Source: a virus. Taken from it: DNA of 35,566 nucleotides. The stretch lies in the IMG/VR virus record IMGVR_UViG_3300042518_000607, positions 1 to 35,566 of that record; one strand, given 5' to 3'. Position numbers and translations under genes: made by a program. Numbering within the stretch: the stretch's first letter is position 1; each line of letters begins with the position of its first letter. Shown one piece after another: positions 2,566-8,424 of the stretch. Below the pieces are notes generated by a model, which was given only the letters and a program-made list of their open reading frames with translations, ran no database searches and was not told where the DNA came from.

Positions 2566-2587
2566 AAGTGTCTCTTGTTGTTGTTTG

Positions 2588-2697
2588 TAGTCAGGGCAGG
2601 ACTTGAACCTGCAAAGTTTGGGAGCCTCTTTCATAAGCTGGGGTTGATTCTATCTCACCCTACTGTCCATGCGTTTAACCAATTACGCCACCTGACT
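2588..2697 (-). tRNA. Aberrant tRNA-like element, about 110 nt
   Basis: The minus strand has a perfect 7-bp acceptor stem (AGTCAGG with CCTGACT), the TG at positions 8-9, a D arm GCG/CGC whose loop holds TTGG, and a perfect T arm (GCAGG, loop TTCAAGT, CCTGC). A discriminator A follows and CCA is not encoded. Between the D and T stems lie 58 nt where an ordinary tRNA has 23. Within it a 5-bp stem AGCTT/AGGCT encloses the 7-nt loop ATGAAAG, with U33 and anticodon GAA (Phe), at 2623-2639. That leaves 31 extra nt after the D arm, containing another hairpin (GGGTGA, loop GATAGAA, TCAACCC with one bulge), and a 10-nt variable region. A second reading gives loop CTCCCAA (Gly CCC) with a mismatched stem. 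It may be a degenerate tRNA, a tRNA with an insertion, or a structured RNA that mimics tRNA. Confidence 0.6.
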
Positions 2698-2710: not shown

Positions 2711-3031
2711 TCAAATATCTATGGACTTTACAAATTCTTCAAAATTTCTTATGATGCAATATCGGTATCCTGCATTCTCTACTTGGCTTTGCCACCACTT
2801 TTGGCGCTCCGATTGCCGACCCGTCGCAGTCTTGAACTCCAAGAATATCGGACCGCTCTTGCTTAGGTAGGTCATATCGGCTACTCCCGATATCATACCC
2901 ATCACCTTCAGCTGCGCGCCTTGCCTCGCGTCGCGGGGGTTATTGTGATTCATATACAAAAGCCCGCGCTCTCTTGGACAATTATTCCAATGCCATGTAA
3001 AGCAGTGCGCTTGTAGTTGTTGTTCACTCAT
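2711..3031 (-). CDS. VRR-NUC domain nuclease
   Basis: The 106-aa protein is a stand-alone VRR-NUC domain of the PD-(D/E)XK superfamily. GVAD (49-52) supplies the catalytic aspartate and FLEFKTATGRQSERQ (63-77) the E-x-K and the following glutamine; the family's QxxxxxxL-type helix (QKWWQSQVENAGY) comes next. Phage versions of this size act on branched or structured DNA, probably as Holliday-junction or flap nucleases in replication and recombination. It is cytoplasmic. The start overlaps the stop of a 53-aa gene by 8 nt (ATGAGTGA), and the SF2 helicase lies just upstream of that, so the three are translationally linked. Confidence 0.88.
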   Translation of the reverse strand: MSEQQLQAHCFTWHWNNCPRERGLLYMNHNNPRDARQGAQLKVMGMISGVADMTYLSKSGPIFLEFKTATGRQSERQKWWQSQVENAGYRYCIIRNFEEFVKSIDI

Positions 3032-4841: not shown

Positions 4842-7079
4842 TTATTGGTTCAAACTGCCAAGTTGAGTGTATCCAGTAAGTTCGACTCTGTAGCCTTTTT
4901 TCGGTTTTCCTTCGTCTCGCTTGTAAGTTTGGAGAAATCCGAGATTTTTCAGAGCGATTCCGAGCCTGTTAGGAAACACCTTAATTTTCGTGTTTGCTTC
5001 AATATGGACTAGAATTTCGGTTGCAGACCAGAAAAAAACATTAGATCCATTGTCATCATCTGCAGGAATTTTGAAGAACATATTGACGGCTTCTTCTATC
5101 GTATCGACTTGCTTATTTGTAGAGGTGCATTTTTCAAGTAGCTTTATATCCTTCGATGACATTTGCCATGCTTCTTTGCCGTTCTCTTGATAAAGCCAAT
5201 ATGCTTCCATGAGTAAGTCTATTTTATCAATGGCATTATATGCATCAAAGTCTATGTCAAGCACATTGATAGGAATGATGCGTCGGTTTCCTGTAGGATC
5301 ATTGATTACTTCGGACTCATTTGAAGTACCACAAAGCACGGCGTATCTCCTGTAGGTCTCATCTTTGCGCTCGTAGGGCTTTCTTAAGCTAAAATACTGC
5401 GTTGAAGCGTATTGCTTTAGTAGTTTATACTCGTTTTTAGACTTCCCGGAGAACTCGTCATCGCAAATAATCAATTTTTTGCACATGAGTACTTCATCGT
5501 CTTTACCGCGGTCAAGTTTTGACTCTGCATAGTAGCTTCTTAGCTCTTTTGGGAGTATCCACCTAAAGAAATTGGTTTTCCCGATGCCTTGATTGCCAAC
5601 AAGCACTAAAATGAGTAGTGAATAAGTCCCATGCATCGATGCAATGAGTGAAACAATCCATTTTTCAATAAATATGCCAATAAGATAGTTTTCGGTAATG
5701 ACTTCAGTGAATCCTTTGTCGTTTACATAGTTAGTTTTGGACTTTATAGTCTCTATCAGTGCTTTTATAGCTCCTTTGGGTTTTCTATCCTTATGTAACT
5801 CAAAAAACTCAAGAAATGGGTTGTAATTCGGTATGAAATCGGAGTGAATAATGGCATTAAAGTATGTTTGCGTGCATTTAGGCCCAAGAGATTCGGTCAA
5901 TTGGATATAGATGCTATTCATATCTGTATCAGTGATAGGCTTGCCTTTATATTCGATTTCGTGCGTCAATTCATTGCGTTTGAGGTCAAACTCTTTCAGC
6001 ATTACCTTCATGAGAGGTATGATATTATCGTCTTTTTCCTTTTTTAGCTGCTCTTTGGGTGTATTTATGACTTTATCTGCTATTTCAAGTGCTTCTTTGG
6101 GGTCTTCGCCTTCAGATTCGGCAAGTTGTTTCATAGATCGTCTGATATCCTCTTTATTCATGCGACCATTACGCACCATTGAAGTAGCTGAAGCCTCCCA
6201 CTTCTTTGTTCTTTCGGTTTGGATGTCAATGTTATACTTTTTGCATAGATAGAATAGAGTTCCAATACCTATGACGCCTTTATTAGTTGCAAGGATATTG
6301 TCATACTTTTTATCGGTCTTTTGAGCGTCGTATTTATTGCTATTAATTTCAGATATTTGATGAAAGAAGTCACGTCCACGTTCGCCGTATTCGGTTGCAA
6401 ATGCTCTACCGACATTAAGCCAATCGCCATAGTCATTCACTAAATCGATGCGTCTTGCTCGGAGTTGTTTGATCATGTGCTCTACATCCGGTTCGATTAT
6501 GGCGTGCATAACCTTTGGCGCTGTTTGAGTTACTTTTTTTCTATATCGTGTGAATACTGGTACTTTATCCGGATCATTGGTTACTATATTAGGATCATAG
6601 GATATAAAACGCAATCGGCTTATATCTTTGCATGATGGATCGCATTCGAGTTGATAGTTTTCGAGTAGATAGTCTTCAAGGCCTTCGAATGATTCAAGGT
6701 GCTTATTAGGGTCAATCTTGAAATAAGCAGCGTATCCATAGCCTCCGAGTGACATATGAAGTGCTAGGATATGCTTATCGGCTCGAAGTTTATCAATCTT
6801 TTCGTTTATGTCTATATTGTCTTGATCATCGATATCCATGCAGATGACGCCGTTATGTTTCACCAGTGATGCGACGCCCCTGCCTTGGAACTCTCCTGAC
6901 ATTGCAAAAGCTGGCATTTTGCTCTTAGCGGCTTTTTGTTCTTCTTTGGTTTTCATATTACGGTAGGGAGTTACTATATCCTCCCATCTCCCTCTTTTGA
7001 TATCCCAAAAGAACTGCACAATGTCTCTGAAGTCCTTTTGTTCAGTAGCTTGTGCGCTGGTGTATTCAGTGATTCTCAT
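4842..7079 (-). CDS. Primase/helicase-like replication protein with VirE_N/BT4734 and VirE P-loop domains
   Basis: The 745-aa protein has three recognisable parts. Residues 1-185 resemble the BT4734/VirE_N region, with ICMDIDDQ (79-86) as the metal-binding strand of a primase-polymerase-like fold. Residues 205-275 resemble a PriCT-2 segment, with the family's DWLNVGRA motif. Residues 440-700 are the VirE-type P-loop ATPase: Walker A GNQGIGKT (505-512), Walker B LIICDDEF (546-553), and GTSNESEVINDPTGNRR (584-600), a sensor-like stretch typical of this family. It probably primes and unwinds the phage genome at the fork. This architecture is mostly found in Bacteroidota elements and phages and is the best host clue in the window. 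The gene overlaps the upstream DnaA-like gene by 4 nt. Confidence 0.88.
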   Translation of the reverse strand: MRITEYTSAQATEQKDFRDIVQFFWDIKRGRWEDIVTPYRNMKTKEEQKAAKSKMPAFAMSGEFQGRGVASLVKHNGVICMDIDDQDNIDINEKIDKLRADKHILALHMSLGGYGYAAYFKIDPNKHLESFEGLEDYLLENYQLECDPSCKDISRLRFISYDPNIVTNDPDKVPVFTRYRKKVTQTAPKVMHAIIEPDVEHMIKQLRARRIDLVNDYGDWLNVGRAFATEYGERGRDFFHQISEINSNKYDAQKTDKKYDNILATNKGVIGIGTLFYLCKKYNIDIQTERTKKWEASATSMVRNGRMNKEDIRRSMKQLAESEGEDPKEALEIADKVINTPKEQLKKEKDDNIIPLMKVMLKEFDLKRNELTHEIEYKGKPITDTDMNSIYIQLTESLGPKCTQTYFNAIIHSDFIPNYNPFLEFFELHKDRKPKGAIKALIETIKSKTNYVNDKGFTEVITENYLIGIFIEKWIVSLIASMHGTYSLLILVLVGNQGIGKTNFFRWILPKELRSYYAESKLDRGKDDEVLMCKKLIICDDEFSGKSKNEYKLLKQYASTQYFSLRKPYERKDETYRRYAVLCGTSNESEVINDPTGNRRIIPINVLDIDFDAYNAIDKIDLLMEAYWLYQENGKEAWQMSSKDIKLLEKCTSTNKQVDTIEEAVNMFFKIPADDDNGSNVFFWSATEILVHIEANTKIKVFPNRLGIALKNLGFLQTYKRDEGKPKKGYRVELTGYTQLGSLNQ

Positions 7080-7516
7080 GCCTTGGCCTTGCGAATAAGT
7101 TGTAAGTAGATTTCGTTAAAGTTCGGATCTAGTATGCGTTCGTGTTTTATATTTCGGGCTGCAATTATAGGCAATTTACGATCACAATTAAATATAAAAG
7201 CGATATCCGTCATAGTGAATGCAAAGTCTTGATAGCATATTGTTATGGCCACATGACGCGCAAAGCTTTGGCGCTGGTAGATATGCTGAATACTAATTTC
7301 GTAGTATTCTGCTACTACTTTGCATACCCGCTCGGATACTTCATAGAGTTCGGCGGTGTTCATTTTTCGAACACGCCCGCGCGGTTTCTTTGTTCGATTT
7401 CCGAACAATTCCTCGCGTTCTATTTTAAGAATCGCTGAAAGCGGGAGCGTAGCCAGCGGCTTAGGGTTTGTATCTTGCGCGAGGTCACTGATGTGACCGA
7501 TCGGATGTAAGGGCAT
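7076..7516 (-). CDS. Small DNA-binding protein with DnaA domain IV-like helices
   Basis: In this 146-aa protein, residues from about 65 on resemble the C-terminal DNA-binding domain of DnaA: a first helix that sets the domain (VCKVVAEYYEISIQHI), the QRQSFARHVAITICYQDF helix in the place of DnaA's R-x-x-A-M-Y-L helix, then FTMTDIAFIFNCDRKLPIIAAR in the place of the helix-turn-helix and signature. The ATPase part of DnaA is absent. The N-terminus has an LPLSAILKIEREEL motif shared in outline with the next two genes upstream. It lies immediately before the primase/helicase gene, so origin recognition or loading is a reasonable inference, and transcription control is an alternative. Confidence 0.6.
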   Translation of the reverse strand: MPLHPIGHISDLAQDTNPKPLATLPLSAILKIEREELFGNRTKKPRGRVRKMNTAELYEVSERVCKVVAEYYEISIQHIYQRQSFARHVAITICYQDFAFTMTDIAFIFNCDRKLPIIAARNIKHERILDPNFNEIYLQLIRKAKA

Positions 7517-7555: not shown

Positions 7556-8119
7556 TCAGGATCTAAGTTGTTCATGTCGAGTCCAAAGATAGTCTTCGAT
7601 TTTTTGCGCTGTTAGTTGCACTTGCGAGTATGTATCAAGCTCATCCATAGCCGCGTAAATATGATGCGAAAGAGTCGAGCGATTCATGTCTAAGTATTCG
7701 GCGATCTTGAATGATGTAAGCTTCAGATATACGGTCGCAAAGAATATAAACATCCGCTTTGCTGCTATTAGCTCTTGGAATCTTACCTTGTCTCTTAGCG
7801 TGTGTTTTGTCGGAAAATGTTTAAGCACTTCGACTTCAAGGCCTTCGAGTTCGCCGTATGGATTGACAAATGCAAAGTCAATACCTCGCTTCATAAAGTA
7901 AGCGCTTTTGGTTCTCGGGTCTATCCTTGCAAATTGAAGTTGCGGTCTTTTTTGTTTTGCAAAGTAATAATCTGCTAGGTTATTCTTAGTTTTTATTGCT
8001 TGTCTGGTTTTGCGTTCGAGTTCTTCGCGTTCCTCTCGAAGTTGCTCTGATAGGCTTTTGCCTTTGACGAAGGGGGTCGGTAGACCTTCCCCCTCGTCGT
8101 AAATAGCCGCGTAATTCAT
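7556..8119 (-). CDS. DNA-binding protein, LSEQLREER motif plus DnaA domain IV-like C-terminus
   Basis: The 187-aa protein has an N-terminal segment with the motif SLSEQLREEREELERK (about 23-38). This is followed by a middle part, with an FAFVNPYGELEGLEVEVLKHFP region that may be beta-rich. The C-terminal domain (about 105-165) includes RFQELIAAKRMFIFF, then TSFKIAEYLDMNRSTLSHHIY, a clear helix-turn-helix placed like the DnaA signature helix. The start overlaps the stop of the ribbon-helix-helix gene by 4 nt; 39 nt separate it from the next gene. Likely a sequence-specific DNA binder acting in replication or early gene control; the partner site is unknown. Confidence 0.6.
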   Translation of the reverse strand: MNYAAIYDEGEGLPTPFVKGKSLSEQLREEREELERKTRQAIKTKNNLADYYFAKQKRPQLQFARIDPRTKSAYFMKRGIDFAFVNPYGELEGLEVEVLKHFPTKHTLRDKVRFQELIAAKRMFIFFATVYLKLTSFKIAEYLDMNRSTLSHHIYAAMDELDTYSQVQLTAQKIEDYLWTRHEQLRS

Positions 8120-8424
8120 TTTACATCCTCGAATTCTTTAAAGTATTTTTTTAGTGCTCTTCTGAATAGCTCTCTTTGCGAGATATTTTGCGCCTTTGCG
8201 AGTTCTCGGAATCGAGCGGCCATTGCGTTTGGTATTTTAATCGCAAGCGCTGTAATGCCTTGTCTTTTATCGGGTGTAAGGCCTTCGCCTTTAGCTCTTT
8301 GGAATCCGATTGCAGTTTTCTCGATTACCCTGCGTTCCTCTCTTAGTTGTTGAGACAATGGAACTCCAAGCTTAAGCGAAGTCTCGATACCGGCGACTTC
8401 TTTGTATAGGGCGGATGTTTTCAT
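8116..8424 (-). CDS. Ribbon-helix-helix DNA-binding protein
   Basis: The 102-aa protein begins like its neighbour (an MKTSALYKE opening, then PLSQQLREERRVIEK) but ends in a different DNA-binding fold. ALAIKIPNAMAARFRELAKAQ followed by NISQRELFRRALKKYF (about 60-95) is a typical ribbon-helix-helix: a strand that contacts DNA, then two helices. Proteins of this fold act as dimers or tetramers on repeated operators. It overlaps genes on both sides by 4 nt and so is made with them. Autoregulation or a plasmid-style role at an origin are possible; the sequence does not choose. Confidence 0.65.
   Translation of the reverse strand: MKTSALYKEVAGIETSLKLGVPLSQQLREERRVIEKTAIGFQRAKGEGLTPDKRQGITALAIKIPNAMAARFRELAKAQNISQRELFRRALKKYFKEFEDVK

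Follow-up and report, generated by a model that had tools for sequence, protein, structure and literature searches.

What is an RNA that has the acceptor stem and the D and T arms of a tRNA, and a middle that is oddly long? The question is raised by positions 2588-2697 of a 35.6-kb IMG/VR virus record, which we analyzed over its whole length of 35,566 nucleotides (the window). An earlier note, made from the letters alone, had placed an oversized tRNA-like RNA there and had read its middle as a Phe (GAA) anticodon arm preceded by a 31-nt insertion and followed by a 10-nt variable region. The host of the window virus is probably one of the Bacteroidota, because the relatives of its primase infect Cellulophaga, Nonlabens, and Flavobacterium (nearest are Cellulophaga phage phi46:1 and the Nonlabens phages P12024, 39% identity, followed by Flavobacterium phages). 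No close match was found for the terminase of the window.

A tRNA frame between two phage genes

The element and its neighbors are listed below in the 5' to 3' order of the minus strand, where RNA position k corresponds to window position 2698-k. L numbers, here and throughout, are our own handles.

2711..3031, minus: upstream gene, VRR-type nuclease / Holliday resolvase-like (phrog_824, phrog_93); stop codon 13 nt before the RNA
2588..2697, minus: whole tRNA-framed RNA, 110 nt; the discriminator A is 2588
2691..2697, minus: acceptor 5' strand AGTCAGG, 7/7 pairs with 2589-2595
2671..2688, minus: D arm GCGT-AATTGGTTAA-ACGC, with the GG for the elbow
2613..2670, minus: variable core, 58 nt, replacing anticodon and variable arms; family shared with L119, L200, L248-L251, and L253
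2666..2668, minus: GGA, which may pair with TCC at 2621-2623 to close the core (3 bp); in all homologues, with no covariation
2636..2664, minus: core hairpin AGTAGGGTGAGATAGAATCAACCCCAGCT, five basal pairs intact in 12/12 sequences
2626..2635, minus: conserved TATGAAAGAG, predicted single-stranded; TATRAAAG invariant in 12/12, partly through the search pattern
2596..2612, minus: T arm GCAGG-TTCAAGT-CCTGC; first pair G-C or A-T, depending on the homologue
2589..2595, minus: acceptor 3' strand CCTGACT, partner of 2691-2697, with compensatory changes in relatives
2566..2587, minus: CA-rich leader that separates the RNA from the following start codon, first base C; similar in L002, L003, L006, and L007
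1978..2565, minus: downstream gene, Methyltransf_24 protein (PF13578, 2e-20); probable start ATG at 2565

Using cmscan, we found that the Rfam tRNA model RF00005 covers exactly 2697-2588 on the minus strand (42.1 bits; E 8e-6 over 35.6 kb) when a 49-nt stretch is skipped, so the covariance search that the earlier note had proposed returned the very coordinates it gave. Its description of the frame was also accurate: all 7 acceptor pairs, all 4 D-stem pairs, and all 5 T-stem pairs form, the D loop contains TTGG, and 58 nt separate the D and T stems. A decoding tRNA also has an anticodon arm (5-bp stem, 7-nt loop with U33), which the homologues of this core do not conserve. ARAGORN called nothing here without introns; when introns were allowed, it proposed a poor Pro(AGG) tRNA interrupted in the loop by a 31-nt intron, and in mitochondrial mode it reported Phe(GAA). 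The folding energy of the whole sequence was not unusual compared with shuffles (z -0.63), and the evidence for structure is therefore comparative. On that evidence, set out below, the element is a genuine tRNA-like RNA encoded on the minus strand.

The element lies 22 nt before the methyltransferase ATG. A mechanically called ORF, 1978-2634, runs in frame through the RNA (2566-2634, minus) from an ATG inside the core; we take 2565 to be the true methyltransferase start because the beginning MNHYYQNI is conserved in relatives without the RNA. For the upstream gene, the VRR_NUC match was weak and under its cut-off, and PADLOC found nothing in six window proteins.

The core of the element in other phages

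Patterns taken from the core, not the frame, retrieved it in 14 other phage contigs, one copy (L201) being cut off by the contig end. L011/L059 have the identical element, and L198, L199, L202, and L203 have a near-identical one in which a double change turns the acceptor into AGTTAGG/CCTAACT. In L200, the acceptor is the compensatory GTCAAGG/CCTTGAC, and double changes occurred in the T stem of this core family too. These are the compensatory changes that the earlier note had suggested seeking in related phages, and together with the recurrence of the core they uphold its argument against simple decay. The D-loop GG and the T-loop TTC.A were invariant in the 12 aligned sequences.

The base of the core hairpin, AGTnGG..CCnGCT, was paired in 12/12 sequences; one pair had changed on both sides (G-C/C-G), and G-U changes occurred too. 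Statistical support for this hairpin is modest because most pairs never vary. The Phe arm fared differently. Of its five pairs, three are broken in 4, 5, and 2 of the 12 homologues and a fourth in 1, and the triplet read as GAA is AAA in 7/12. The 31-nt insertion and 10-nt variable region are thus one possible fold of a single sequence, unconserved in homologues. One pair of the Phe arm did covary among the first seven sequences, and for that reason the core-hairpin stretch may have an alternative fold.

A second core family shows frame covariation

A different core, CACCTCCCCAAGGTTGAG..CTCTTTATGG, was present in 47 contigs, the longest of 318 kb. Among its 23 distinct sequences the frame is retained while the bases change: acceptors include AGTCAGG/CCTGACT, AATTATG/CATAATT, and AATCATG/CATGATT, T stems include ACAGG/CCTGT and ATTGG/CCAAT, one D-stem pair occurs in four types, and the pair closing the core in three. 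We counted 55 both-side-changed cells, compared with 16.4 in shuffles (0/500 shuffles reached 55) and 0-4 in slid controls. Judged from these alignments, the covariation of the frame is the mark of selection on RNA structure. What we conclude about covariation is drawn from the two samples collected by core, in which the acceptor was not fixed. The motif CACCTCC, which we take to match the anti-Shine-Dalgarno tail of 16S rRNA, lies inside the second core (e.g. L219), maybe by chance.

Cores are replaced at the same locus

We compared the window locus with that of its close relatives. Of 22 readable loci, the window's among them, 6 contain a single tRNA-like element or a pair and 16 contain none; this absence from 16/22 means that the element is dispensable. 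In nine loci compared, the flanking genes were 80-95% identical and nearly all core comparisons were no better than shuffled sequence. The exceptions were the identical cores of the window and L011, and those of L003b and L007, identical except for a length difference. L003 and L006 have two elements each, enclosing an ORF 98.2% identical in DNA; the cores are unalignable between the two loci. The enclosed ORF matched the anti-CBASS protein Acb2/Tad1 (PF24729, 28.6 bits, cut-off 27). L002 has a 74-nt version that ARAGORN called tRNA-Ala(CGC). Alanine identity of a tRNA requires a G3-U70 pair, and since this pair is missing, the L002 element is probably not a working Ala tRNA.

The earlier note had held that relatives with a normal tRNA at this site, and random changes here, would point to a pseudogene. 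The first part was partly borne out, as L002 has a tRNA-sized element and the 16 empty loci have none. The second was not: the differences at the locus are wholesale replacement of cores rather than random decay, and no random stem-breaking changes of the pseudo-tRNA kind were found in the window element.

The AGTCAGG-type family across phages

Searching with a pattern that describes the 3' end of the frame, we found the family in at least 120 IMG/VR contigs of uncultivated phages, with as many as 7 copies in 5 kb (L080) among the matches listed. When species genomes of bacteria and archaea, 84,980 in all, were searched with a similar pattern, it occurred in only 13 stretches, of which roughly half were from Bacteroidota. 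In the frame, whose acceptor is usually AGTCAGG/CCTGACT, the D arm is Leu-like, a T arm is present, and a C lies 3' of the discriminator; the sequence enclosed by the two arms, the core, is hypervariable. The window element, with its compensated frame and recurring non-anticodon core, belongs to this type.

Among the matches listed were 101 distinct AGTCAGG elements of 67-183 nt (54 nt for the shortest in a looser list), a sample in which the acceptor 3' strand and T loop were fixed and the D-loop GG was filtered, so that constancy at those places reflects how it was selected. A canonical anticodon arm was found in 4/101 of these elements (about 1 in shuffles) versus 69/84 ordinary tRNAs from the same contigs. 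Neighboring tRNA-like structures with other acceptors were mostly 70-87 nt, and oversize was tied to the AGTCAGG class, not to the ordinary tRNA neighbors. The class grades into tRNA-like forms, as some members, 71 nt long, resemble tRNA-Lys(UUU) (L074, L090, L130). The C 3' of the discriminator was present in 97/101 elements of the family and likewise in 84/84 ordinary tRNAs, and a T precedes the 5' end (position -1) in 86/101 members. ARAGORN called only 38 of 120 elements among the matches listed, with scattered identities. ORFs were mostly on the strand of the element, both upstream (63/70) and downstream (54/62).

The interiors group into recurring families, and near-identical cores recur in phages with different flanks. 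Stems within them are compensated, as in GTTGAA..TTCAAC of L082/L131 versus GAGCAA..TTGCTC of L135. Comparison of the contigs establishes the family, the pairing of its frame, the conservation of its cores, and their replacement at a fixed locus, and it supports the original idea of an odd-middled tRNA-like RNA within an operon.

Some arrays had further features. In L080 (minus strand) and L125, dense arrays mix ordinary and oversized tRNAs, and the module CCTAGCCTTTGTTTGGGGCAAGCGCTCG directly follows elements, as do other repeated non-tRNA modules. Another module, CGCAAAAAACACGGATGGAGTTTCCTTACC or a close variant, adjoins elements on the 3' side in L069 and L092 and on the 5' side in L192. 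A module with GTGACNNCTCGGAAAGACG or a similar sequence follows elements of different cores in L198, L199, L203, L080, and L113. A small intergenic unit with a T-arm mimic occurs in L080, L089, and L125 (CTTAGGAGTAATTAACCTAAGACTGAGAGGTTCGAAACTCTC in L080). L125 also has an oversized element at 7002-7103 with the acceptor TTCTATT/AATAGAA and a second T-arm-like hairpin within its core. In the viral contig L079, a tmRNA match adjoins a group I intron match (7609-8193, minus). The contig CALMEO010000055.1 (L193/L196), labeled uncultured bacterium, has 15 tRNAs in 8 kb plus family elements; it is perhaps a phage contig in a metagenome-assembled genome.

A possible payload on a tRNA chassis

We favor, with a probability of roughly 0.48, the reading that the element is a non-decoding small RNA on a tRNA chassis, excised by the host tRNA-processing enzymes, whose core is a payload acting in trans. 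The parts of a tRNA that the family keeps are the ones recognized by RNase P, RNase Z, and the CCA enzyme. The enzyme-read parts stay and the decoding part is gone, and from this we infer excision as a stable RNA. Host enzymes would see a pre-tRNA in the retained acceptor stem, T arm, and D-loop/T-loop elbow. RNase P would then cut the 5' end and RNase Z or an equivalent the 3' end, CCA might be added to the latter, and a stable RNA of ~110 nt would be freed from a putative nuclease-methyltransferase transcript. The core, standing in the place of the anticodon arm, would act in trans. Phages hold many cores on one chassis and would swap them, probably by recombination within the constant ends of 26-27 nt.

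As for the cores themselves, antisense pairing with their own contigs exceeded shuffled sequence by 0.0 on average (11 nt for the window vs 10.95 shuffled), and mini-ORFs were not enriched (52 vs a shuffle mean of 44, range 35-55). A search of 11 loci at a lax threshold for Rfam families inside cores gave only tRNA and sub-threshold chance matches, and no reverse-complement matches between cores were found. A broader proposal, that Bacteroidota phages share a modular RNA system of one chassis and swapped structured cores serving as trans-acting effectors, perhaps against host defense, is possible, and we offer it tentatively.

A tRNA-like fold could also act in cis alone. The fold might be a processing site that splits the nuclease and methyltransferase messages and leaves a short leader on the latter, the core being filler. 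Such a role fits the tight spacing (gaps of 13 nt to the gene upstream and 22 nt to the gene downstream), the same-strand bias of the neighboring ORFs, and the presence of elements even beside terminase genes. However, cores form motif-bearing families across different phages, one of them with a covarying closing pair, relatives with an empty site retain both genes, and in RNA arrays some copies are not separated by any evident ORF, so we regard cis punctuation as somewhat doubtful.

It is unlikely that the element is a decoy or antagonist, in which case it would mimic a tRNA so as to occupy a tRNA-acting host defense enzyme or another tRNA-binding protein, or to offer it a target. The locus is accessory and the Acb2/Tad1 gene lies between two elements in L003 and L006, which hints at such a role, and phage tRNAs rescue infection from retron-Eco7 and PrrC (PMC11555353). 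Yet the rescuing tRNAs are specific ones, Tyr and Lys, supplied with their identity, whereas the anticodon arm is absent here, and other copies adjoin structural genes instead of anti-defense genes.

Folded DNA serving as an attC-like recombination site for cassette shuffling would account for conserved inverted ends around a variable centre, for the position between genes that come and go, and for the swapping of cores and genes. We consider it improbable: no cognate tyrosine recombinase was found in the window record and its domain was found in 1/26 records, with stop codons (many of these records may be fragments), and a DNA site would need neither the elbow bases nor the base following the discriminator, both of which belong to tRNA. 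A degenerate tRNA would explain the odd middle and the tRNA-sized element of L002, but is very improbable given perfect compensated stems, conserved core motifs, and a core shared with other phages. We rejected, as the least probable of all, an intron-interrupted tRNA spliced to a working one, to which the Pro(AGG) call pointed, because that reading has mismatched stem pairs, the anticodon stem is unconserved in homologues (no exonic part beyond GGA/TCC is kept), and group I and II introns are far longer than 31 nt.

Comparison with known systems

Blastn searches of a 50,697-record GenBank phage collection, using whole elements of different cores plus the window region, gave partial matches of the tRNA 3'-end type or nothing, and no recognizable copy. 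A literature search of limited reach, mostly outside subscription journals, found no description of the family. These phage tRNA-framed RNAs are apparently undescribed as a family; they fall within viral tRNA-like RNAs, and we file them under this known kind because tmRNA, plant-virus structures, and laboratory scaffolds are conceptual precedents. If our reading is true, annotation pipelines overlook a widespread class of phage non-coding RNA, and a natural tRNA scaffold with exchangeable cores would add an RNA layer to phage biology.

Phage tRNA genes (RF00005) share with the family the acceptor, the D and T arms, the elbow bases, the C after the discriminator, and the contigs in which they occur; the family differs from them in that the anticodon arm is missing, a single acceptor sequence is preferred from phage to phage, and the core varies in length. 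Integron attC sites also have constant paired ends and a variable centre between exchangeable genes, but the family keeps tRNA loop sequences and the tyrosine recombinase domain is nearly absent in the 26 records tested. tmRNA (RF00023) likewise combines a tRNA-like domain with a non-tRNA insert that replaces the anticodon arm. Family elements are much shorter, retain the D stem, and have no reading frame enriched over shuffles; in the window, RF00023 had no match. A tmRNA has a tag reading frame and a tRNA-like domain without a D stem, and the element does not fit that description. In plant RNA viruses, 3' tRNA-like structures (PMC4810235) are also viral RNA imitating tRNA, whereas the family is internal to an operon of a dsDNA phage, has D- and T-arm sequences near those of real tRNA, and holds many cores. 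The laboratory tRNA scaffold (PMC3753655) places a functional RNA where the anticodon arm was, as the family may do; the family, however, is natural, resides in phages, and carries a wide variety of cores.
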